Below the pieces are notes generated by a model. It saw only the letters and a program-made list of their open reading frames with translations. It did no database searches and was not told where the DNA came from. 64,000 nucleotides of DNA from Burkholderia pseudomultivorans (GTDB taxonomy: Bacteria > Pseudomonadota > Gammaproteobacteria > Burkholderiales > Burkholderiaceae), in NCBI RefSeq assembly GCF_001718415.1, contig NZ_CP013378.1, positions 3,472,001-3,536,000 of the forward strand. The letters are read 5' to 3'. Positions 30,399 through 56,110 of this stretch are shown piece by piece. How positions within the stretch are numbered: position 1 is the first letter of the stretch; every line of letters begins with the position of its first letter. The translations under genes and the position numbers were made by a program.

Positions 30399-30695
30399 CT
30401 GGCATCTCCTTGTTCGTATCGGTCACCATGGAGCCGGGCGCCGACGGCGTCAACGCCGCCGCCGGCCCGGTCGACATCGATACGACGCGCGACGCATCGG
30501 GAAATCGACATGCACGCGCACCGCGCCGGCGAACCGGCGAGCGCCCGTCCATTTTGGTGACGGATCGGATCGGGGGACCCGGCCTCACGTCACCCTATTC
30601 GAACGGCCACCCCGCTCTCCTTTTCCGGATTCGGAAAGTCGAAAGCAGAAATCCTTGGTTGGGACGCGCGATCGCGCTGGCTACACTCGCCCCAT
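30399..30695. other. Divergent intergenic region
   Basis: No gene is supported in these roughly 300 bases between the MFS gene and the HutC-type regulator. Both promoters should lie here, with the palindrome at 30696-30709 at the downstream edge. Confidence 0.5.
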
Positions 30696-30709
30696 CTTGT
30701 CATAACAAG
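30696..30709. promoter_or_regulatory. Candidate HutC-type operator
   Basis: CTTGT-CATA-ACAAG is a perfect 5+5 palindrome ending 7 bases before the regulator's ATG. Its TTGT-N4-ACAA core fits GntR/HutC sites, and binding here would block transcription of the whole downstream cluster. Confidence 0.55.
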
Positions 30710-30716
30710 TCGACCG

Positions 30717-31487
30717 ATGCCCCCACCCAATGTCGTACCGCTGTCGCCACCGCCGCTCTACGTGCAGATCAAGGACACGCTGCGCACGCGCATCCTCGAC
30801 GGCACCTATGCGCCGCACAGCCGGATGCCGTCCGAGCACGCGCTGTGCGCGATGTTCGACGTGAGCCGCATCACCGTGCGCCAGGCGCTTGGCGATCTGC
30901 AGAAGGAAGGCCTGCTATTCAAGCTTCACGGCAAGGGCACCTTCGTGTCGAAGCCGAAGGCGTTCCAGAACGTCACGTCGCTGCAGGGCTTCGCCGAAGC
31001 GATGTCGTCGATGGGCTACGAGATCGTCAACCAGTTGCGCAGCCTGCGCACCGTCAAGGCCGACCGCCATCTGGCGACGAAACTGCACGTGCCGGAGGGT
31101 GCGCCCCTCGTCGAGATTCACCGCGTGCGGCTCCTGAACCGCGAACCGGTGTCGCTCGAACAGACCTGGGTGCCGGAAGCGCTCGGCAAGCGTCTCGCGA
31201 ACGCGGATCTCGCGACCCGCGACATCTTCCTGATCCTCGAGAACGACTGCGGCATACCGCTCGGCCACGCCGACGTGTCGATCGACGCGATCCTGGCCGA
31301 CGACGAGATCGTCGAGGCGCTGCGCGTCGAGGAAAGCAGTCCCGTGCTGCGCATCGAGCGCCTGACGCACGACGCGTCGGGCACGCCGATCGACTACGAA
31401 CATCTCTACTTCCGCGGCGACGCCTTCCAGTACCGGCTGCGCATCGACCGGCAGAAGACGCGCAAACCAGCAAGGAACCCGCGATGA
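30717..31487 (+). CDS. GntR-family regulator, HutC subfamily
   Basis: A 256-residue regulator with an N-terminal winged HTH (about 12-78; MPSEHALCAMFDVSRITVRQAL) and a UTRA effector domain (about 95-245). It opens a nine-gene co-directional cluster and overlaps the flavoprotein gene by ATGA, so it is part of the operon it probably controls. A palindromic site lies at its start. The ligand is unknown. Confidence 0.92.
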   Translation: MPPPNVVPLSPPPLYVQIKDTLRTRILDGTYAPHSRMPSEHALCAMFDVSRITVRQALGDLQKEGLLFKLHGKGTFVSKPKAFQNVTSLQGFAEAMSSMGYEIVNQLRSLRTVKADRHLATKLHVPEGAPLVEIHRVRLLNREPVSLEQTWVPEALGKRLANADLATRDIFLILENDCGIPLGHADVSIDAILADDEIVEALRVEESSPVLRIERLTHDASGTPIDYEHLYFRGDAFQYRLRIDRQKTRKPARNPR

Positions 31488-33223
31488 ATACCCATATCCA
31501 TGAATACGACATCGTCGTGGTCGGCGGCGGCACGGCCGGCCCGATGGCCGCGATCAAGGCGAAGGAGCGCGACCCGTCGCTGCGCGTACTGCTGCTCGAG
31601 AAGGCCAACGTGAAGCGCAGCGGCGCGATCTCGATGGGCATGGACGGACTGAACAACGCGGTGATCCCGGGGCATGCGACGCCCGAGCAGTACACGCGCG
31701 AGATCACGATCGCGAACGACGGGATCGTCGACCAGGAAGCGGTCCACGCCTACGCGACGCACAGCTTCGCGACGATCGAGCAGCTCGATCGCTGGGGCGT
31801 GAAGTTCGAAAAGGACGGCACCGGCGACTATGCGGTGAAGAAGGTGCATCACATGGGCTCGTACGTGCTGCCGATGCCCGAAGGGCACGACATCAAGAAG
31901 GTGCTGTACCGGCAGTTGAAACGCGCACGCATCGCGATCACGAACCGGATCGTCGCGACCCGCGTGCTGACCGATGCGCAGGGCCATGCAAGCGGCGTGC
32001 TCGGCTTCGACTGCCGCACCGCGGATTTCCACGTGATCCGCGCGAAGGCCGTGATTCTCTGCTGCGGCGCGGCCGGCCGGCTGGGCCTGCCGGCATCCGG
32101 CTACCTGATGGGCACCTACGAGAACCCGACCAACGCCGGCGATGGCTACGCGATGGCCTATCACGCAGGCGCGGCGCTCGCGAACCTCGAATGCTTCCAG
32201 ATCAACCCGCTGATCAAGGATTACAACGGCCCCGCGTGCGCATACGTGACGGGGCCGCTCGGCGGCTTCACCGCGAACGGCAAGGGCGAACGCTTCATCG
32301 AATGCGACTACTGGAGCGGCCAGATGATGTGGGAGTTCTACCAGGAGCTGCAAAGTGGCAACGGCCCCGTGTTCCTGAAGCTCGACCATCTGGCGGAAGA
32401 AACCATCCAGACCATCGAGCAGATCCTGCACACCAACGAGCGGCCGAGCCGCGGCCGCTTCCATGCCGGACGCGGAACCGACTACCGGCGCCAGATGGTC
32501 GAGATGCACATCTCCGAGATCGGCTTCTGCAGCGGCCACAGCGCCTCGGGCGTCTACGTGAACGCGCGCGCGGAAACGACCGTGCCCGGTCTTTACGCGG
32601 CGGGCGACATGGCCGCCGTCCCGCACAACTACATGCTCGGCGCCTTCACGTACGGCTGGTTCGCCGGGCAGAACGCCGCGGAATATGTGGCCGGTCGCGA
32701 CCACGCGGCCGTCGACCGGGCACAGGTCGACGCCGAACGCGCGCGCGTGCTGGCGCCGCTCGCGCGCGACCACGGCCTCGCGCCGGCGCAGGTCGAGTAC
32801 AAGCTGCGACGCATGGTGAACGACTACCTGCAGCCGCCGAAGGTGACGCGCAAGATGGAAATCGGCCTGCAGCGTTTTGCCGACATTTCTGAGGATATCG
32901 AATCGATCAAGGCCAGTCATCCGCACGAACTGATGCGCGCGGCCGAAGTGCGCGCGATCCGCGACTGCGCCGAAATGGCCGCGCGCGCGTCGCTGTTTCG
33001 CACCGAGAGCCGCTGGGGGCTTTACCACCACCGCGTCGACTTCCCGCACCGCAACGACGCCGAGTGGTTCTGCCACACGTGGCTGAGCAAGGGTGCCGAC
33101 GGCACGATGCGCAGCGAGAAGCGCGCGGTCGAGCCGTACATCGTGCCGCTCGCCGACGACGAGCGCAGCGCCTACGCGCATCTGCGCATCCGTGAACCGG
33201 CCGCGCTCGCGGCCGCCCTCTGA
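31484..33223 (+). CDS. AprA-like FAD-dependent oxidoreductase, flavoprotein subunit
   Basis: A 579-residue enzyme of the succinate dehydrogenase/fumarate reductase/APS reductase flavoprotein superfamily. The FAD-binding GGGTAGP is at 14-20; RSGAISMGMDGLNNAV is similar in style to the adenylylsulfate reductase alpha subunit, and GLYAAGDMAAVPHN near 371 is the second FAD motif. No signal peptide is present, so it is cytoplasmic. An AprB-like ferredoxin is encoded 11 bases downstream. No sulfate adenylyltransferase gene is nearby, so true APS reductase activity is doubtful and the substrate is unknown. Confidence 0.85.
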   Translation: MNTHIHEYDIVVVGGGTAGPMAAIKAKERDPSLRVLLLEKANVKRSGAISMGMDGLNNAVIPGHATPEQYTREITIANDGIVDQEAVHAYATHSFATIEQLDRWGVKFEKDGTGDYAVKKVHHMGSYVLPMPEGHDIKKVLYRQLKRARIAITNRIVATRVLTDAQGHASGVLGFDCRTADFHVIRAKAVILCCGAAGRLGLPASGYLMGTYENPTNAGDGYAMAYHAGAALANLECFQINPLIKDYNGPACAYVTGPLGGFTANGKGERFIECDYWSGQMMWEFYQELQSGNGPVFLKLDHLAEETIQTIEQILHTNERPSRGRFHAGRGTDYRRQMVEMHISEIGFCSGHSASGVYVNARAETTVPGLYAAGDMAAVPHNYMLGAFTYGWFAGQNAAEYVAGRDHAAVDRAQVDAERARVLAPLARDHGLAPAQVEYKLRRMVNDYLQPPKVTRKMEIGLQRFADISEDIESIKASHPHELMRAAEVRAIRDCAEMAARASLFRTESRWGLYHHRVDFPHRNDAEWFCHTWLSKGADGTMRSEKRAVEPYIVPLADDERSAYAHLRIREPAALAAAL

Positions 33224-33234
33224 GGAGCCTCACC

Positions 33235-33480
33235 GTGCCCCATACCCCGCACGACATCTTCCTGCGCAGCAGCGCGCCCGTCACGATCGACGAGGAACGC
33301 TGCATCGCCGACAAGGGCTGCACCGTCTGCGTCGACGTATGCCCGCTCGACCTGCTCGCGATCGACGTCAGCAAGGGCAAGGCCTACATGCAGTTCGACG
33401 AATGCTGGTACTGCATGCCGTGCGAGCGCGACTGCCCGACCGGCGCGGTCAAGGTCGACATCCCGTACCTGTTGCGCTGA
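33235..33480 (+). CDS. AprB-like ferredoxin with two [4Fe-4S] sites
   Basis: An 81-residue iron-sulfur protein. One cysteine set is C23, C29, C32, C36 (first spacing five instead of two) and the other C57, C60, C63, C67 followed by PTG. The wider first spacing resembles AprB rather than bacterial 2[4Fe-4S] ferredoxin. It should carry electrons for the flavoprotein encoded just upstream. The start is GTG with TGAGGAG upstream. Confidence 0.88.
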   Translation: MPHTPHDIFLRSSAPVTIDEERCIADKGCTVCVDVCPLDLLAIDVSKGKAYMQFDECWYCMPCERDCPTGAVKVDIPYLLR

Positions 33481-33530
33481 CCCGGCGCAAGACCGGCGCA
33501 TCGATTCTCCCTTTCCGGATTCCGAACATC

Positions 33531-34955
33531 ATGAACCCCACGCTACGGATTTTTCGCCTGTTCGCCGCATCGCTCGCCGTCGCGGCTGCCGGCTTCGCGC
33601 ATGCCGAAACGATTCGCGTCGCGATCGGAACGCAGGACACGACGATCAACTGCGCGACCGGCGGCCTGCTGATTCGCGAACTGCATCTGCTCGACAAGTA
33701 CCTGCCGCGCACCGGCAAGTATCGCGACGTGAAATACGACGTGCAATGGAAGGACTTCACTTCCGGCGCACCGCTGACCAACGAGATGGTCGCCGGCAAG
33801 CTCGACTTCGGTGCGATGGCCGACTTTCCCGGCGCACTGAACGGCGCGGCGTTCCGCAAGGCCGGCCGCAGCAGCGTGTTCATCACCGTGCTCGACGGCA
33901 GCATCGACGGCAGCGGCAACGGCATCGTCGTGCCGACGAACTCGCCGGCGCGCTCGCTGGCCGACCTCAAGGGCAAGACGATCTCGGTGCCGTTCGCCTC
34001 GACCGCGCACGGGATGCTGCTGCGCGCGATCAAGGCGCAAGGCTGGAATCCCGACACCGACGTGAACATCGTCACGCAGGCGCCGGAGGTGGCCGGCAGC
34101 GCGCTGAAGGCGAACAAGATCGACGCGCATGCAGATTTCGTGCCGTTCGCGGACCTGTTCCCGTACCGCGGCATCGCCCGCAAGATCTACGACGGCGCGC
34201 AAAGCCACGCGCCGACCTTCCACGGCGCGCTCGTCGATGCCGCCTATGCGCAGCGCTATCCGGAAGTGGTCGTCGCGTACCTGCGGGCCGTGATCGAGGC
34301 AAACCGGCTGCTCGCGGAAAACCCGGAGAAGTACAGCCTGCTGATCGAGAAGGTCACCGGCATCGACGCGCCGGTCGATTACCTGTATCACGGGCCGCTC
34401 GGCATCCAGACCCGCGGCCTGACCTGGAAGCCCGAATACCGGCAGGCCGTCGCCACCGCGATCGATACGCTCAAGCTGCTGAAGAAGACCGACACCGCGC
34501 CCGATCCCGCGACCTTCATCGACGATCGCTACATCCGCGCGGCCTTCAAGGCGTCGGGGCTCGACTACGATGCGGCGCTCAGGCATTACGGCAAGCAGCC
34601 GCTCGTCGCAAACGATGCATCGACCGGCAAGCCGATTCGCGATTTCAACGACGTCGCGCAGGTCTGGCTCGCCGGCGACGAAGCCGTGCGTCACTACGCG
34701 AGCCCGGCCGCCGCGTTCGCCGTGCTCGAGAAGCTCGGCCCGGCCGCGAAGGTGCGCGCGGTGTACGTGCACGACCATGCAAGCGGCCTGAAGCTGTTCG
34801 CCGACCAGGCGTGGTACGTGAAGGACGCGCGCGGCACGCTCACCGCGTTCCTGCTGAAGACGGGCGCCGACGCATACGCGCAGCAGGTATCGGGCGCGGT
34901 CGTCGACTACGCGGCCGCGAAGACCGGCGCCGCACAGGCGCTCGCTGCACGCTGA
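33531..34955 (+). CDS. ABC transporter substrate-binding protein with a NosL-like C-terminal domain
   Basis: A 474-residue periplasmic protein. A signal peptide ends near residue 25 (AHA). Residues about 26-350 form an SsuA/TauA/NMT1-type binding domain (IRVAIGTQDTTINCATGG; LADLKGKTISVPFASTAHG). Residues about 360-462 resemble NosL: GKPIRDFNDVAQVW, VRAVYVHDH, DQAWYV and a GAVVDY end. The metal-binding cysteine of NosL is not seen. The extra domain makes it about 140 residues longer than usual SsuA proteins. The permease and ATPase genes follow directly. Confidence 0.85.
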   Translation: MNPTLRIFRLFAASLAVAAAGFAHAETIRVAIGTQDTTINCATGGLLIRELHLLDKYLPRTGKYRDVKYDVQWKDFTSGAPLTNEMVAGKLDFGAMADFPGALNGAAFRKAGRSSVFITVLDGSIDGSGNGIVVPTNSPARSLADLKGKTISVPFASTAHGMLLRAIKAQGWNPDTDVNIVTQAPEVAGSALKANKIDAHADFVPFADLFPYRGIARKIYDGAQSHAPTFHGALVDAAYAQRYPEVVVAYLRAVIEANRLLAENPEKYSLLIEKVTGIDAPVDYLYHGPLGIQTRGLTWKPEYRQAVATAIDTLKLLKKTDTAPDPATFIDDRYIRAAFKASGLDYDAALRHYGKQPLVANDASTGKPIRDFNDVAQVWLAGDEAVRHYASPAAAFAVLEKLGPAAKVRAVYVHDHASGLKLFADQAWYVKDARGTLTAFLLKTGADAYAQQVSGAVVDYAAAKTGAAQALAAR

Positions 34956-34996
34956 GCCTCGCGCTCCTTCTCCACTCATCGACACCGGACATTCGC

Positions 34997-35872
34997 ATGG
35001 CCGCCACCTTCGAACTCGCCAAACGTCGTCTCCCCGACCCGCCGCGCACGAGCGACGGCTTCGCGTCGCGCGCCGCCACGCGCGATCGTTCCAACTCGCT
35101 GCGCCGGCGCGCCACGCGGATCGCGTCGCTCGCCGCATGCGTCGCGCTGTGGCAGGCGGCCGTCCACTGGCGGCTGTCACTCGGCATCGTCACGTTCGCG
35201 AACGTGCCCGCGCCGACCGACGTCGGCCCGGCGCTCTGGTCGTTCCTGCAATCGCCGAAGCTGCCGATGCACCTGCTCGCGAGCGTCACGCGCGTGCTGG
35301 CGGGATTCGTCGCGGCGGCCGTCGCGGGCATCGGCCTCGGGCTCGCGATCGGCCGCTACCGCGCGCTCGAGGACACGCTGCTGCCGCCGCTCGAGGTATT
35401 GCGACCGATTCCTGCCGTCGCGTGGATTCCGCTCGCGATCCTGATGTTTCCGTCGTCCGAGCTCAGCATGATGTTCATCACCTTCGTCGGCGCGCTGTTC
35501 CCGATCCTGCTGAACACCGTGCACGGCGCCGAGGCCGTCGACCCGCGGCTCGTCGCGACCGCGCGCAGCCTCGGCACGCGCGGCCTCGCGCTCTATGCGG
35601 AAGTGATCCTGCCCGGCGCCGCGCCGGCGATCTTCACGGGCCTGTCGATCGGCATGGGCACCGCCTGGTTCTGCCTCGTCACCGCCGAAATGATCGCAGG
35701 CCAGTACGGCATCGGCTATTTCACATGGGAGTCCTATACGCTGCAGAACTATCCGGACATCGTGGTCGGGATGGCGCTGATCGGCCTGCTCGGGATGGGC
35801 AGCAGCCTGCTCGTCAAGCGGATCGGCGCGGCCCTCACGCCGTGGTATGCGCCGCGCGGAGGCCGGTCGTGA
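34997..35872 (+). CDS. ABC transporter permease (SsuC/TauC type)
   Basis: A 291-residue inner-membrane permease with a charged N-terminus of about 35 residues and about six helices. The EAA loop that docks the ATPase is seen at EVILPGAAPAIFTGLSIGMG. PIPAVAWIPLAILMF and TARSLG are typical of nitrate/sulfonate/taurine permeases. Its stop overlaps the ATPase start by GTGA. Confidence 0.9.
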   Translation: MAATFELAKRRLPDPPRTSDGFASRAATRDRSNSLRRRATRIASLAACVALWQAAVHWRLSLGIVTFANVPAPTDVGPALWSFLQSPKLPMHLLASVTRVLAGFVAAAVAGIGLGLAIGRYRALEDTLLPPLEVLRPIPAVAWIPLAILMFPSSELSMMFITFVGALFPILLNTVHGAEAVDPRLVATARSLGTRGLALYAEVILPGAAPAIFTGLSIGMGTAWFCLVTAEMIAGQYGIGYFTWESYTLQNYPDIVVGMALIGLLGMGSSLLVKRIGAALTPWYAPRGGRS

Positions 35873-36657
35873 GCGCGGCCGGGCTTGCCTCGCCCGCGCC
35901 GGGCCGCGTCGGCGTGCGGGCGCTGACGATCGAACTCGGGCCGCCGCACGCGCGCTTCGCCGCACTCGATGCGCTCGACGTCGATATCGCGCCGGGCGAA
36001 TTCGTCTGCGTGCTCGGGCCGTCGGGATGCGGGAAATCGACGCTGCTCGGCGCGCTCGCCGGCCATGTCGCGGCCACGGAAGGCGAGATCGTCGTCGATG
36101 GCGTGCCGGTCGAGCGCCCGCATCCCGATCGCGGGCTCGTGTTCCAGCAGCACACGCTGTTTCCGTGGAAACGCGTGATCGACAACGTCGCGTTCGGCCT
36201 GAAGATGAAGGGCGTGCCCGCGCGCGAACGTCGGCGCGAAGCGGCTGCACTGCTCGAACTCGTCGGGCTCGGCGGCTACGGCGCGCACTACCCGGCCCAG
36301 CTTTCCGGCGGCATGCAGCAGCGTGTCGAGATTGCGCGCGTACTGATCAACCGGCCGCGCATCCTGCTGATGGACGAACCTTTCGGCGCACTCGATGCGC
36401 AGACGCGCCGGATGATGCAGACGCTGCTGCTCGACATCTGGTCGCGGATCGGCACGACCGTGTTGTTCGTCACGCACGACATCGAGGAGGCGCTGTTCCT
36501 CGGCGATCGCATCCTGATGCTGTCGCCACGGCCCGCACGCCTCGTCGCCGACATTCGGGTGCCGCTCGCGCGGCCGCGCACCGACGACAGCACGACCGAT
36601 CCCGCGTTCATCGACATCAAGCGCCGCTGCCTCGCGCTGCTGCGCGACGCGGGATGA
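35869..36657 (+). CDS. ABC transporter ATP-binding protein (SsuB/TauB type)
   Basis: A 262-residue ATPase with Walker A GPSGCGKST (50-58), Q-loop VFQQHTLFPW, signature LSGGMQQR (145-152), Walker B LLMDE (166-170) and the switch histidine in FVTHDIEEA. The GTG start overlaps the permease stop. With the two preceding genes it completes an importer of the nitrate/sulfonate/taurine class. Confidence 0.93.
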   Translation: MSAAGLASPAPGRVGVRALTIELGPPHARFAALDALDVDIAPGEFVCVLGPSGCGKSTLLGALAGHVAATEGEIVVDGVPVERPHPDRGLVFQQHTLFPWKRVIDNVAFGLKMKGVPARERRREAAALLELVGLGGYGAHYPAQLSGGMQQRVEIARVLINRPRILLMDEPFGALDAQTRRMMQTLLLDIWSRIGTTVLFVTHDIEEALFLGDRILMLSPRPARLVADIRVPLARPRTDDSTTDPAFIDIKRRCLALLRDAG

Positions 36658-36694
36658 TCCCGCGCCGCTCCTTCACCGCTTCGACCCTTCGCCC

Positions 36695-37687
36695 ATGACC
36701 GCCTACTCCTCCGCATTCCCGTCACCCGATGCGCACGAGCACGACGCTGCCGCGCTCGTCGCGCGCCTCGCCGCCCCCGATCCGTCGGTGCGCCGCATTG
36801 CGCTGTACGAACTCGCCGACCTCGAGGATCCCGACCTCGTGCCGGCATTCGTCGCGGCGCTGCACGACGATCCATCGGCCGACGTGCGTCACGAGGCCGC
36901 GCGCGTGCTCGGCGCGTGGGAACAGCCCGACGTCGTCGACGCGCTGTGCCGCGCGCTGCTCGATCCGGACGACGCAGTCCGCGCCACTGCGGCGCAGAGC
37001 CTGTCCGAGCTGAAGGACGCCGCGTCCGGTCCCGTGCTGCGACGCTGGGCCGATCGCCCCGAACCGTTCGTGCGCGGCGCCGTGCTGCGCGGCCTGCGCG
37101 AGCTGCGTTTTGCGGATGCGTTCGAACCGGCGCTGGATGCGCTCGACGATGCGGCCGCGGCGGTGCGCAGCGAAGCCGTCGCGGTGCTCGGCTGGCTGCG
37201 GGAGCCGCGCGCGCTGGCGCCGCTCGCGCGCGTCGCGACCGACGATCCGGATGCCGAGGTGCGACGCGTCGCCGTGGGCGCCGTCGGGTTCGCACCGCCC
37301 GGCGATGCGGCTGTCTCGGCCGCGCTGCTTGCCGCGCTGCGCGACCGCGAATGGCAGGTGCGCGAGGAAGCAGCCGCGACGCTCGGCAAGCTGCGCGTCG
37401 CCCATGCTCGCGAACCGCTCGTCGCCGCGCTCGACGACGATTACTGGCAGGTGCGCGTGCGTGCGGCGCGCGCGCTCGGACAGCTGCGCGACGCGGCCGC
37501 CGCGCCGGCTGTCGCCGCACTGCTCGCGCATGCGATCAGCAACCTGCGCAAGGAAGCCGCGCTCGCGCTCGGCGAGCTGCGCGACCCGGCCACGCTGCCG
37601 GCCCTGCACGATGCGCTCGAGGATCGCGATCCGGAGGTGCGCAAGGCCGTGCGGATCGCGATCCGGCAAATCGGGGAAGCGCCATGA
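36695..37687 (+). CDS. HEAT-repeat protein (PBS lyase-like repeats)
   Basis: A 330-residue soluble protein built of about nine helical repeats of roughly 31 residues (units such as DPDLVPAFVAALHDDPSADV, VRHEAARVLGAW, VRKAVRIAIRQIG), as in PBS-lyase HEAT proteins. Such proteins scaffold complexes or load cofactors onto partners. It overlaps the DUF971 gene by ATGA, and together they close the transporter/oxidoreductase cluster. A role in assembling the flavoprotein-ferredoxin enzyme is a guess. Confidence 0.88.
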   Translation: MTAYSSAFPSPDAHEHDAAALVARLAAPDPSVRRIALYELADLEDPDLVPAFVAALHDDPSADVRHEAARVLGAWEQPDVVDALCRALLDPDDAVRATAAQSLSELKDAASGPVLRRWADRPEPFVRGAVLRGLRELRFADAFEPALDALDDAAAAVRSEAVAVLGWLREPRALAPLARVATDDPDAEVRRVAVGAVGFAPPGDAAVSAALLAALRDREWQVREEAAATLGKLRVAHAREPLVAALDDDYWQVRVRAARALGQLRDAAAAPAVAALLAHAISNLRKEAALALGELRDPATLPALHDALEDRDPEVRKAVRIAIRQIGEAP

Positions 37688-37968
37688 CGCCGCCGACCGA
37701 CATCATGCTCGACACGGCGGGCCGCGCGATGACGCTGCGCTGGCCGGACCGCGAAGCGCAGCGTGTGGACTATGCGCGGCTGCGCCGCGACTGTCCGTGC
37801 GCCGAATGCCGCAGGATCCGCCATGACGGCGGCAGCGTCGCCGTGCAGCCGGACATTGCGCTGGTGCGTGTGGAAGCCGCAGGGTATGGCATTCGCCTCG
37901 TGTTCGGCGACGGCCATGCGCGCGGCATCTATCCGTGGTCGTATCTGGCGGAACTCGCACATGCGTAA
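37684..37968 (+). CDS. DUF971 protein
   Basis: A 94-residue protein with the DUF971 (gamma-butyrobetaine hydroxylase N-terminal-like) pattern: LRWPDREAQRVDYARLRRDCPCAECR, then VEAAGYGIRLVFGDGH and GIYPWSYL. The CPCAEC cysteines suggest a zinc or iron-sulfur site. Such proteins occur near Fe-S cluster genes. It overlaps the HEAT gene by four bases and is the last gene of the cluster. Confidence 0.9.
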   Translation: MTPPTDIMLDTAGRAMTLRWPDREAQRVDYARLRRDCPCAECRRIRHDGGSVAVQPDIALVRVEAAGYGIRLVFGDGHARGIYPWSYLAELAHA

Positions 37969-56004: not shown

Positions 56005-56031
56005 GAAAACACCCCGGTGCTACCGGGGTGT
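56005..56031 (-). terminator. Terminator of ppsA
   Basis: ACACCCCGGT/ACCGGGGTGT, a 10-bp stem with a short loop, followed on the minus strand by TTTTCG. It separates ppsA from the NfeD gene. Confidence 0.85.
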
Positions 56032-56110
56032 TTATATCACAAACCTTTCATTTTGCCTTCAACGAAAGTGCGGACGAACCGCCATTTCGTCGAACGCGCA
56101 TGAGCGACCG

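Follow-up and report, generated by a model that had tools for sequence, protein, structure and literature searches.

What does a flavoprotein related to adenosine 5'-phosphosulfate (APS) reductase work on when its gene lies beside those of an ATP-binding cassette (ABC) importer? The question is raised by eight genes at positions 30717–37968 of the window, by which we mean the whole 64,000-nucleotide stretch analysed here (Burkholderia pseudomultivorans, contig NZ_CP013378.1, positions 3,472,001 to 3,536,000; the source genome comprises 7.96 Mb in three contigs). Our answer, to which we give a probability of about 0.55, is that the cluster would be a sulfur-starvation module, which imports an organosulfur compound and processes it with an AprBA-type enzyme carrying flavin adenine dinucleotide (FAD) and [4Fe-4S] clusters, probably releasing sulfite. 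Sulfur acquisition of some kind is probable, because the importer is of the sulfonate type, the enzyme is a relative of sulfite-forming enzymes and the gene set has, in the source genome, a control sequence of the sulfur type. For the flavoprotein–ferredoxin pair itself to transform the imported compound the odds are even, and sulfite as the direct product, in favour of which we counted that AprA and 3'-phosphoadenosine 5'-phosphosulfate (PAPS) reductase, paralogues of the flavoprotein, release sulfite, is a tentative proposal a little short of that. The odds of these readings and of the rival explanations overlap and do not sum to one. A preliminary description of the locus had only the likeness to AprA and AprB as a link to sulfur; to it are now added the promoter element, an SsuA/TauA-like binding protein and sulfite exporters in some relatives. 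What is new is the enzyme family, distinct and conserved, together with its unstudied partners, the superfamily and the cluster plan being known; no publication on the NF006131 family or on this gene set, and no phenotype for a family member, was found in the Creative Commons-licensed PMC literature, outside which most subscription papers lie.

All eight genes are found on the + strand, in the single direction first described, and our family scans agree with the initial gene assignments. The features of the cluster and its promoter are as follows.

30639–30664, + strand: putative CysB/SsuR-type (LysR) sulfur-regulon element of 26 bp, 52 bases 5' of the first gene.
30696–30709, strand-less: palindrome CTTGTCATAACAAG, a likely operator through which the GntR/UTRA regulator controls its own gene; from promoter comparison.
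30717–31487, + strand: GntR-family regulator with a UTRA ligand domain (PF00392 and PF07702).
31484–33223, + strand: AprA-like flavoprotein (NF006131/PRK08275, 1150.8 bits against a cut-off of 587; PF00890 and PF02910).
33235–33480, + strand: AprB-like ferredoxin for two [4Fe-4S] clusters, 81 amino acids with 8 Cys, GTG start (PF12838).
33531–34955, + strand: ABC binding protein of NMT1/SsuA type, 474 amino acids, with an SsuA/TauA-like domain and a C-terminal NosL-like domain.
34997–35872, + strand: ABC permease of the NrtB/SsuC/TauC class (TIGR01183, 144.8 bits, under the cut-off of 209; PF00528).
35869–36657, + strand: ABC ATPase of the TauB/SsuB class, GTG start (NF008421, 251.1 bits, under the cut-off of 357; PF00005).
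36695–37687, + strand: HEAT-repeat protein (HEAT_2), a homologue of the C-terminal portion found in the PRK13800 fusion.
37684–37968, + strand: stand-alone DUF971 protein with a CPCAEC motif (PF06155, E 1.5e-20).

The four-base overlaps of stops and starts that had been noted between neighbours are present at three of the seven junctions (regulator/flavoprotein, permease/ATPase and HEAT/DUF971), the remaining four being gaps of 11, 50, 41 and 37 bases. The regulator had been called HutC-type; it belongs to the GntR/UTRA class but is not HutC itself (143.4 bits against a cut-off of 220).

The resemblance of the pair to AprA and AprB stands. By sequence, the nearest solved structures to the flavoprotein are the PAPS reductase of M. 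thermolithotrophicus (8a8o) and APS reductase (2fja/1jnr), and the same enzymes are nearest in a fold ranking, the only use made of a low-confidence model (mean predicted local distance difference test score, pLDDT, 64.7, and below 50 in the pocket, for whose geometry we make no claim). Among 24 PDB matches of the ferredoxin, AprB (3gyx_B/1jnr_B) and the beta subunit of PAPS reductase (8a8o_C) stand behind two ferredoxin/polyferredoxin matches, and its eight cysteines, those of a two-[4Fe-4S] beta subunit as in AprBA, are kept in 22 of 22 aligned rows. Both proteins score well under the cut-offs of the corresponding models: the flavoprotein reaches 171.5 bits with the aprA model TIGR02061 (cut-off 641.75) and 283.1 with PRK06854 (cut-off 557), and the ferredoxin 38.6 with TIGR02060 (cut-off 135.65). 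A tree of 34 rows joins the family with AprA and PAPS reductase against SdhA and AsfA (support 98/99), and places AprA and PAPS reductase in a clade of their own (100/100); given its long branches and free root, the family is a possible sister of that clade.

The substrate site differs from that of these relatives. The Arg of the 'RFKD' motif, present in all nine AprA/PAPS reductase rows, gives way to Leu243 throughout the family (21 of 21 rows); an upstream Trp, present in the same nine, is Tyr212 in all 21; nothing corresponds to a second Arg ('CLRNH'/'PMRLY'); and in place of the loop that distinguishes PAPS from APS there is a longer one. In AprA numbering, we take the site residues to be W234, R265 and an R317-type Arg, their numbers and roles being presumed and their positions taken from the alignment. 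The His of the 'GSH/GGH' motif is retained, as His352, in 21 of 21 family rows, with a counterpart in nine of nine AprA/PAPS reductase rows. According to the sections of PMC10322725 that deal with the PAPS reductase site, the equivalent of the Trp is an FAD contact and the loop sets nucleotide specificity. The preliminary description had also named a fumarate reductase with fully conserved active-site residues as the outcome that would count against it, and these residues are missing. Aligned by eye with Escherichia coli SdhA, in which we assume the residue numbers, H242 becomes N241, E255 becomes V255, R286 becomes G279 and R399 is without counterpart, and the His that links the flavin is replaced by Gly47 (RSH to RSG); in a profile alignment SdhA His354 falls on His342, a residue that is Asn in two of the 21 family rows. 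As judged from these residues, the family is neither an APS/PAPS reductase, because the nucleotide-site residues are lost, nor a fumarate reductase, because the catalytic residues are lost, but a distinct AprA-like family. Most of the named family members that we saw are labelled fumarate reductase/succinate dehydrogenase at NCBI, a name that is not supported, since the residues of those enzymes are not conserved.

The gene set recurs in other genomes. In the 80 named beta- and gammaproteobacterial loci, which are the best 80 of 591 confirmed and were all found via the flavoprotein, the ferredoxin gene follows that of the flavoprotein in 80, the regulator lies upstream in 79, the HEAT gene downstream in 78 (in the two exceptions, L086 and L093, the contig ends there) and DUF971 is present in 69. 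This co-occurrence, on which the preliminary description had staked its case, is more than chance. The orthologous importer is found less often (binding protein in 52 of the 80 loci, permease and ATPase in 51), and 27 loci, among them Burkholderia L038, L039, L040 and L048 and Ralstonia L066, L067, L068, L070, L071 and L075, lack orthologous ABC genes between ferredoxin and HEAT, the other genes being contiguous. Since the whole ABC cassette is missing while its neighbours remain contiguous, the importer is a cassette gained or lost as a unit, and the rest is a widely conserved block. The importer being dispensable, the earlier statement that the enzyme works on an imported molecule can be true only where this cassette or another importer is present. 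In the B. territorii locus (L039), a weak 38-bit ATPase match lies in the importer gap and is possibly a remnant.

The flavoprotein was found in 15 of 299 phylum-wide genomes (the source genome counted), every one above the cut-off, and the closest named flavoproteins are those of Burkholderia anthina (97%) and B. multivorans (96%). A further 17 loci come from plasmid records of Aquabacterium, Acinetobacter, Cupriavidus, Paraburkholderia, Methylobacterium, Methylocystis, Mesorhizobium, Bradyrhizobium, Sinorhizobium, Rhizobium, Acidithiobacillus, Nostoc, Pseudanabaena (two), Leptolyngbya, Tsukamurella and Nonomuraea; their gene tables are incomplete, and the Nonomuraea record is unannotated at the locus, where the genes were identified by alignment. 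Within the fetched stretch, flavoprotein, ferredoxin and HEAT are present in all 17, DUF971 in seven and an Mrp/NBP35 gene in four, with no locus having both. The flavoprotein family spans at least three phyla.

What the importer carries is suggested by its binding protein, whose best PDB matches are SsuA (2x26, E 1.8e-16) and TauA (6ssy, E 4.3e-14), although it scores 115.2 with the SsuA family model TIGR01728, under the cut-off of 163.5. Foldseek puts it in the same class as SsuA and TauA, on a low-confidence model (mean pLDDT 56.7) that served for fold ranking only. Its C-terminal 110 or so residues (34551–34952) are NosL-like: PF05573 (NosL) matches eight of nine homologous binding proteins at E≤0.07, exceeding its cut-off of 24 in Pseudanabaena (24.1) and Leptolyngbya (29.2), and the Tsukamurella protein is the one of the nine without a match. 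The window piece alone gives E 0.0015, under the cut-off, and Foldseek finds NosL 7og7 (E 4.7e-4, again on the low-confidence model). The aligned NosL-like segment of 18 proteins contains no invariant Cys, Met or His, so copper binding is not implied.

The promoter provides a further link to sulfur. In 24 promoters compared, the palindrome CTTGTCATAACAAG is exact in seven and occurs in a loose form in 21, being absent from those of L005, L031 and L083. The 26-bp element was aligned in 14; the ten left out are five Pseudomonas-type promoters (aligned apart), a near-copy (L067), and L005, L009, L031 and L083. With a matrix built from the 11 promoters of other genera, the three Burkholderia promoters being held out, the window element scores 25.8 bits and the next best match in the 64 kb 17.2; 19 bases separate the latter, at 56031–56056, from the start of a predicted 152-amino-acid gene on the minus strand. 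Twelve regions of the source genome (105.5 kb in all), selected in advance because they contain SsuA-family, SsuD or CysH/CysD-type genes, hold six sites of at least 18 bits, against three in 400 kb of evenly spaced control sequence from the same genome (binomial p 0.0039); the counts are 7 versus 6 at 16 bits or more and 8 versus 10 at 14 bits or more, and none of 200 column-shuffled matrices reaches six sites in the sulfur regions. The six sites, spread over five of the twelve regions, are all intergenic and lie 56–111 bases from a predicted gene start. Four precede SsuA-family genes above the TIGR01728 cut-off, and two precede an SfnB-like gene (under cut-off) beside an SsuD-like gene. Weaker sites are found before another SsuA-family gene (16.8 bits, but within a predicted frame), between genes of the sulfite/nitrite reductase and CysB families (14.1 bits) and 106 bases before ssuD (12.7 bits). 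In our view this evidence is good, though not final, for membership of the operon in the sulfur-starvation regulon in Burkholderiaceae; the factor that binds the element is presumably CysB or SsuR, which is a guess.

Genes of sulfur metabolism adjoin the cluster in some relatives. In both Pseudanabaena loci and in Leptolyngbya (3/3), HEAT and Mrp are followed by a YeiH exporter and a TauE/SafE exporter; the Aquabacterium locus has TauE directly upstream; that of Sinorhizobium has sulfate ABC, sulfonate ABC and TauD genes; and that of C. pinatubonensis has NtaA/DmoA-type monooxygenase, acyl-CoA-dehydrogenase-type and SsuA-type genes. A second SsuA/TauA-like binding protein is encoded in the fetched flank of 14 of the 80 beta- and gammaproteobacterial loci, that is, in nine of the 27 importer-less loci versus five of the 53 others (Fisher p 0.012, uncorrected for kinship, two of those five ending at a contig edge); by comparison, 20 SsuA-family places were counted over the 7.96 Mb of the source genome, about 0.05 per 20 kb.

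The window HEAT protein matches the PRK13800/NF010374 profile from position 590 to 896 of 898 (92.7 bits, under the whole-protein cut-off), and in Tsukamurella and Nonomuraea (L008, L119) HEAT forms the C-terminal part of the flavoprotein. The fusion, together with the match of the window protein to that very part, makes it very likely that flavoprotein and HEAT protein touch; the word 'fused' in the preliminary description fits these two actinobacterial proteins, while in the window the genes are merely adjacent. All four cyanobacterial loci carry an Mrp/NBP35 gene after HEAT, with PF01883 and PF10609 in the three scanned, and in Proteobacteria DUF971, where seen, comes after HEAT or else opens the operon. 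HCF101 has the architecture FSCA-ParA-DUF971, most DUF971 domains have a CxCxxC motif, and the function of DUF971 in HCF101 is termed elusive, as stated in the relevant passages of PMC7980591. The motif is found in eight of 11 aligned DUF971 rows, including that of the window (CPCAEC). The swap of DUF971 and Mrp/NBP35 in one slot, both being parts of HCF101, supports a role in Fe-S assembly for HEAT and DUF971, and lends some weight to the earlier idea that these proteins mature the enzyme. A unit for Fe-S assembly or docking is conceivable on these grounds, at slightly less than even odds.

The module that we favour would act as follows. On sulfate or cysteine shortage, a CysB/SsuR-type activator, of presumed identity, would bind at 30639–30664 and switch the operon on, helped by departure of the GntR/UTRA repressor from the palindrome at 30696–30709. 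The SsuA/TauA-like importer would take up an organosulfur anion, its likely type of substrate, and the AprBA-like heterodimer of flavoprotein and ferredoxin would pass electrons through two [4Fe-4S] clusters to FAD, if the flow has the expected direction. The heterodimer would then cut the substrate at its sulfur, in a manner like the FAD-N5 attack that has been proposed for APS and PAPS reductases, or transform it otherwise; sulfite, the putative product, would be assimilated by the normal sulfite reductase. HEAT and DUF971 may form a unit dedicated to maturation or docking, by which the [4Fe-4S] clusters are loaded.

Several observations weigh against this proposal. An FAD-N5 attack that breaks a C–S bond faces a poor leaving group in simple sulfonates. 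At the level of control, seven of the twelve sulfur regions have no site of at least 18 bits, and the best site in the control sequence (24.0 bits) stands before a NuoM-like gene. Two replicates of the promoter test in a genome presumed to be that of a Pseudomonas (G058) were negative: a 35-promoter matrix gives, at 12 bits or more, no site in 59 kb of sulfur regions versus one in 240 kb, and a second, diverse matrix (15 promoters) gives two versus 11. As to neighbours, TauE homologues occur in none of the 80 beta- and gammaproteobacterial loci and in three of the 96 loci searched. Clustering of neighbours, on crude longest-frame gene calls with core genes and spurious antisense frames set aside, finds no other broadly shared family, the recurrent ones being NtaA-like monooxygenases (six loci, four genera), a sugar-type ABC ATPase (six loci, four genera) and a few clusters in three genera. 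Five alphaproteobacterial loci (L004, L006, L010, L120, L121) have a Crp/Fnr-family regulator nearby and no adjacent GntR/UTRA gene; no sulfur gene was seen beside the cluster in four of these five, nor a sulfur neighbour in most of the alphaproteobacterial loci. Acidithiobacillus caldus, which carries the core, is a sulfur oxidiser and thus an odd place for sulfur scavenging. Finally, the Cys motif of DUF971 is missing in three of the 11 rows, all rhizobial (Bradyrhizobium, Rhizobium and Mesorhizobium), and six of the 17 plasmid-record loci have neither DUF971 nor Mrp; it is for these two reasons that we only infer the Fe-S role of HEAT and DUF971.

The best-surviving rival, though an unlikely one, is a redox enzyme for a small molecule free of sulfur (a nitrogen or carbon source, or a signal) served by a generic NMT1-type importer. 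NMT1-fold proteins in the Foldseek list also bind nitrate, bicarbonate, pyrimidines and PQQ, amidase or GNAT genes lie near some loci, and GntR/UTRA regulators usually sense molecules of this kind. However, the top matches of the binding protein are SsuA and TauA, the promoter element is of the sulfur type, and sulfite/sulfate exporters or alternative sulfonate-type ABC genes are found near some loci.

A second rival makes the pair an electron-transfer accessory that feeds an SsuD-type enzyme cleaving imported (aryl)sulfonates, as published for AsfA/AsfB. In the parts of PMC4267179 and PMC10441942 that treat it, asf is described as a reductase/ferredoxin with a binding protein and an ABC transporter, needed beyond ssu; and SsuD is above cut-off in 13 of the 15 flavoprotein-positive genomes, including the source genome. 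Of the other two carriers, one (G012) has no SsuD match and one (G200) a match only under the cut-off, which makes a general role as electron donor to SsuD unlikely. Moreover, members of the AprA/FrdA superfamily themselves act on substrates, and ten flavoprotein rows drawn from Proteobacteria, Cyanobacteria and Actinobacteria share 210 invariant columns, which suggests a single conserved substrate. We consider this role quite improbable.

The third rival, that the known asf arylsulfonate cluster has simply been found again, has equally poor prospects, and it overlaps with the sulfur-starvation module, asf being a sulfur-scavenging system too. The excerpts of PMC4267179 on asfRABC list a binding protein, an ABC transporter, a reductase/ferredoxin and a LysR regulator, and report that an asfA mutant loses the use of aromatic sulfonates and keeps that of aliphatic ones; asfA is reported from Burkholderia, Cupriavidus, Pseudomonas, Variovorax and Rhodococcus. 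The window has the same inventory of flavoprotein, ferredoxin, binding protein and ABC transporter side by side, but its regulator is of the GntR/UTRA type and not a LysR protein such as AsfR. For C. metallidurans CH34, the section of the genome paper on these genes gives AsfA/AsfB as Rmet_4334/5. The CH34 replicon holds no orthologue of the window flavoprotein, the best match being 28% over residues 8–273. Identity with AsfA had first been taken as likely and was downgraded once this was seen. In the unannotated CH34 record, Rmet_4334/5 fall at about 923 kb when locus tags are interpolated from TauD copies. A flavoprotein–ferredoxin pair lies 4–7 kb further on, at 927.9–929.9 kb, beside a binding-protein/ABC set, and is the only one with a short dicluster ferredoxin found by a motif scan in about 200 kb; it is on the minus strand with the ferredoxin at the lower coordinate, an imperfect fit to AsfA/AsfB being 4334/5. 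Its flavoprotein is distantly related to that of the window (E 3.4e-5), and the window genome has no match to it at E 1e-20, in a search without a positive control. On the CH34 megaplasmid this probable AsfAB pair has, besides the binding protein and the ABC genes, an amidohydrolase-like gene as a neighbour (L035, 923401–929862), and is one more case of flavoprotein, ferredoxin and ABC genes combined. The window cluster therefore has a plan similar to that of asf but, on this evidence, appears not to be asf. The preliminary description knew of no named pathway with this set; there is one named system of like plan, asf, although the relation of its flavoprotein to that of the window appears to be only distant.

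That the pair serves sulfate assimilation or sulfite oxidation as an APS or PAPS reductase, with the importer a bystander, is very improbable: its closest solved structures are such enzymes and a relative annotated as APS reductase lies within a cysC–cysD operon in Ilyobacter, but the aprA and PRK06854 scores fall far below their cut-offs, both Arg residues and the specificity loop are lost, the cluster has neither cysD nor cysC, and AprA and PAPS reductase keep their own clade.

Returning to the sulfur-starvation module, a bolder version would make the family a third branch of the AprA/PAPS reductase lineage, which moved from nucleotide-activated sulfate to an imported organosulfur compound and yields sulfite without oxygen-dependent cleavage. 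Jointly with this, it would have an importer with a NosL-like domain on its binding protein and its own Fe-S loading unit, a HEAT scaffold with a stand-alone DUF971 in Proteobacteria or with Mrp/NBP35 in Cyanobacteria, as a small counterpart of the eukaryotic MMS19-NBP35 pair. Taken as a whole, this version is somewhat unlikely. Should the family indeed desulfonate an imported compound, soil and plant-associated bacteria would gain a further way to obtain organic sulfur, possibly without an oxygen-dependent monooxygenase. The swap of DUF971 and Mrp/NBP35 in a conserved slot offers in any case a simple handle on DUF971 function.

Around the cluster, ten flanking frames were scanned, of which seven have a family match: an NCS1 permease, a muramoyltetrapeptide carboxypeptidase, TadA, an MFS transporter, a hydroxyacid dehydrogenase, a 2'-5' RNA ligase-type protein and a DnaQ-like exonuclease. 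None of these seven is a sulfate gene, and the remark that no ATP sulfurylase lies nearby holds for them, the three other frames being without match at E 1e-15. Three relatives show additional genes. On plasmid pTcM1 of A. caldus (L005, 10574–14035), a 1153-amino-acid FAD-dependent oxidoreductase is encoded behind flavoprotein, ferredoxin, HEAT and FdxA. In a Nostoc plasmid (L007, 10707–13888), HAD hydrolase, methyltransferase, GNAT and VOC genes lie between flavoprotein and ferredoxin and possibly form a linked modification pathway. On a Pseudanabaena plasmid (L117, 6676–8676), a LysR regulator adjoining the cluster has a C-terminal NMT1-like segment (PF13379, E 0.0003, under cut-off) and is possibly a sensor of the imported ligand.

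How, then, does the cluster relate to known systems? With the flavoprotein of fumarate reductase/succinate dehydrogenase it shares superfamily and fold, but it has neither an iron-sulfur B subunit nor a membrane anchor. The window DUF971, with its CxCxxC motif, corresponds to the C-terminal domain of HCF101, and an FSCA-ParA Mrp of the Mrp-NBP35 type fills the DUF971 slot in the cyanobacterial clusters; the window DUF971 differs in standing alone beside a HEAT protein, and rhizobial members differ in lacking the Cys motif. The importer resembles SsuABC and TauABC, its binding protein being nearest to SsuA and TauA and its permease and ATPase of the same class, but the 474-residue binding protein has the extra NosL-like domain and stays under the SsuA-family cut-off. 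The asf cluster of P. putida S-313 and C. metallidurans has in common with it a flavoprotein 'reductase', a dicluster ferredoxin, a binding protein, an ABC transporter and the context of sulfur scavenging; it differs in its flavoprotein, which appears to be a distant paralogue (in CH34, as placed by interpolation), in its LysR regulator where the window has GntR/UTRA, and in that the passages describing asf do not mention the HEAT and DUF971 proteins of the window cluster. AprBA and PAPS reductase share with the pair an FAD alpha subunit of the fumarate-reductase superfamily with an RSG-type FAD loop, an 8-Cys dicluster beta subunit and a conserved His, with which His352 of the window family aligns, whereas here the substrate-site Arg residues and the nucleotide loop are replaced, and the operon has, without ATP sulfurylase or APS kinase, HEAT and DUF971 proteins as partners.

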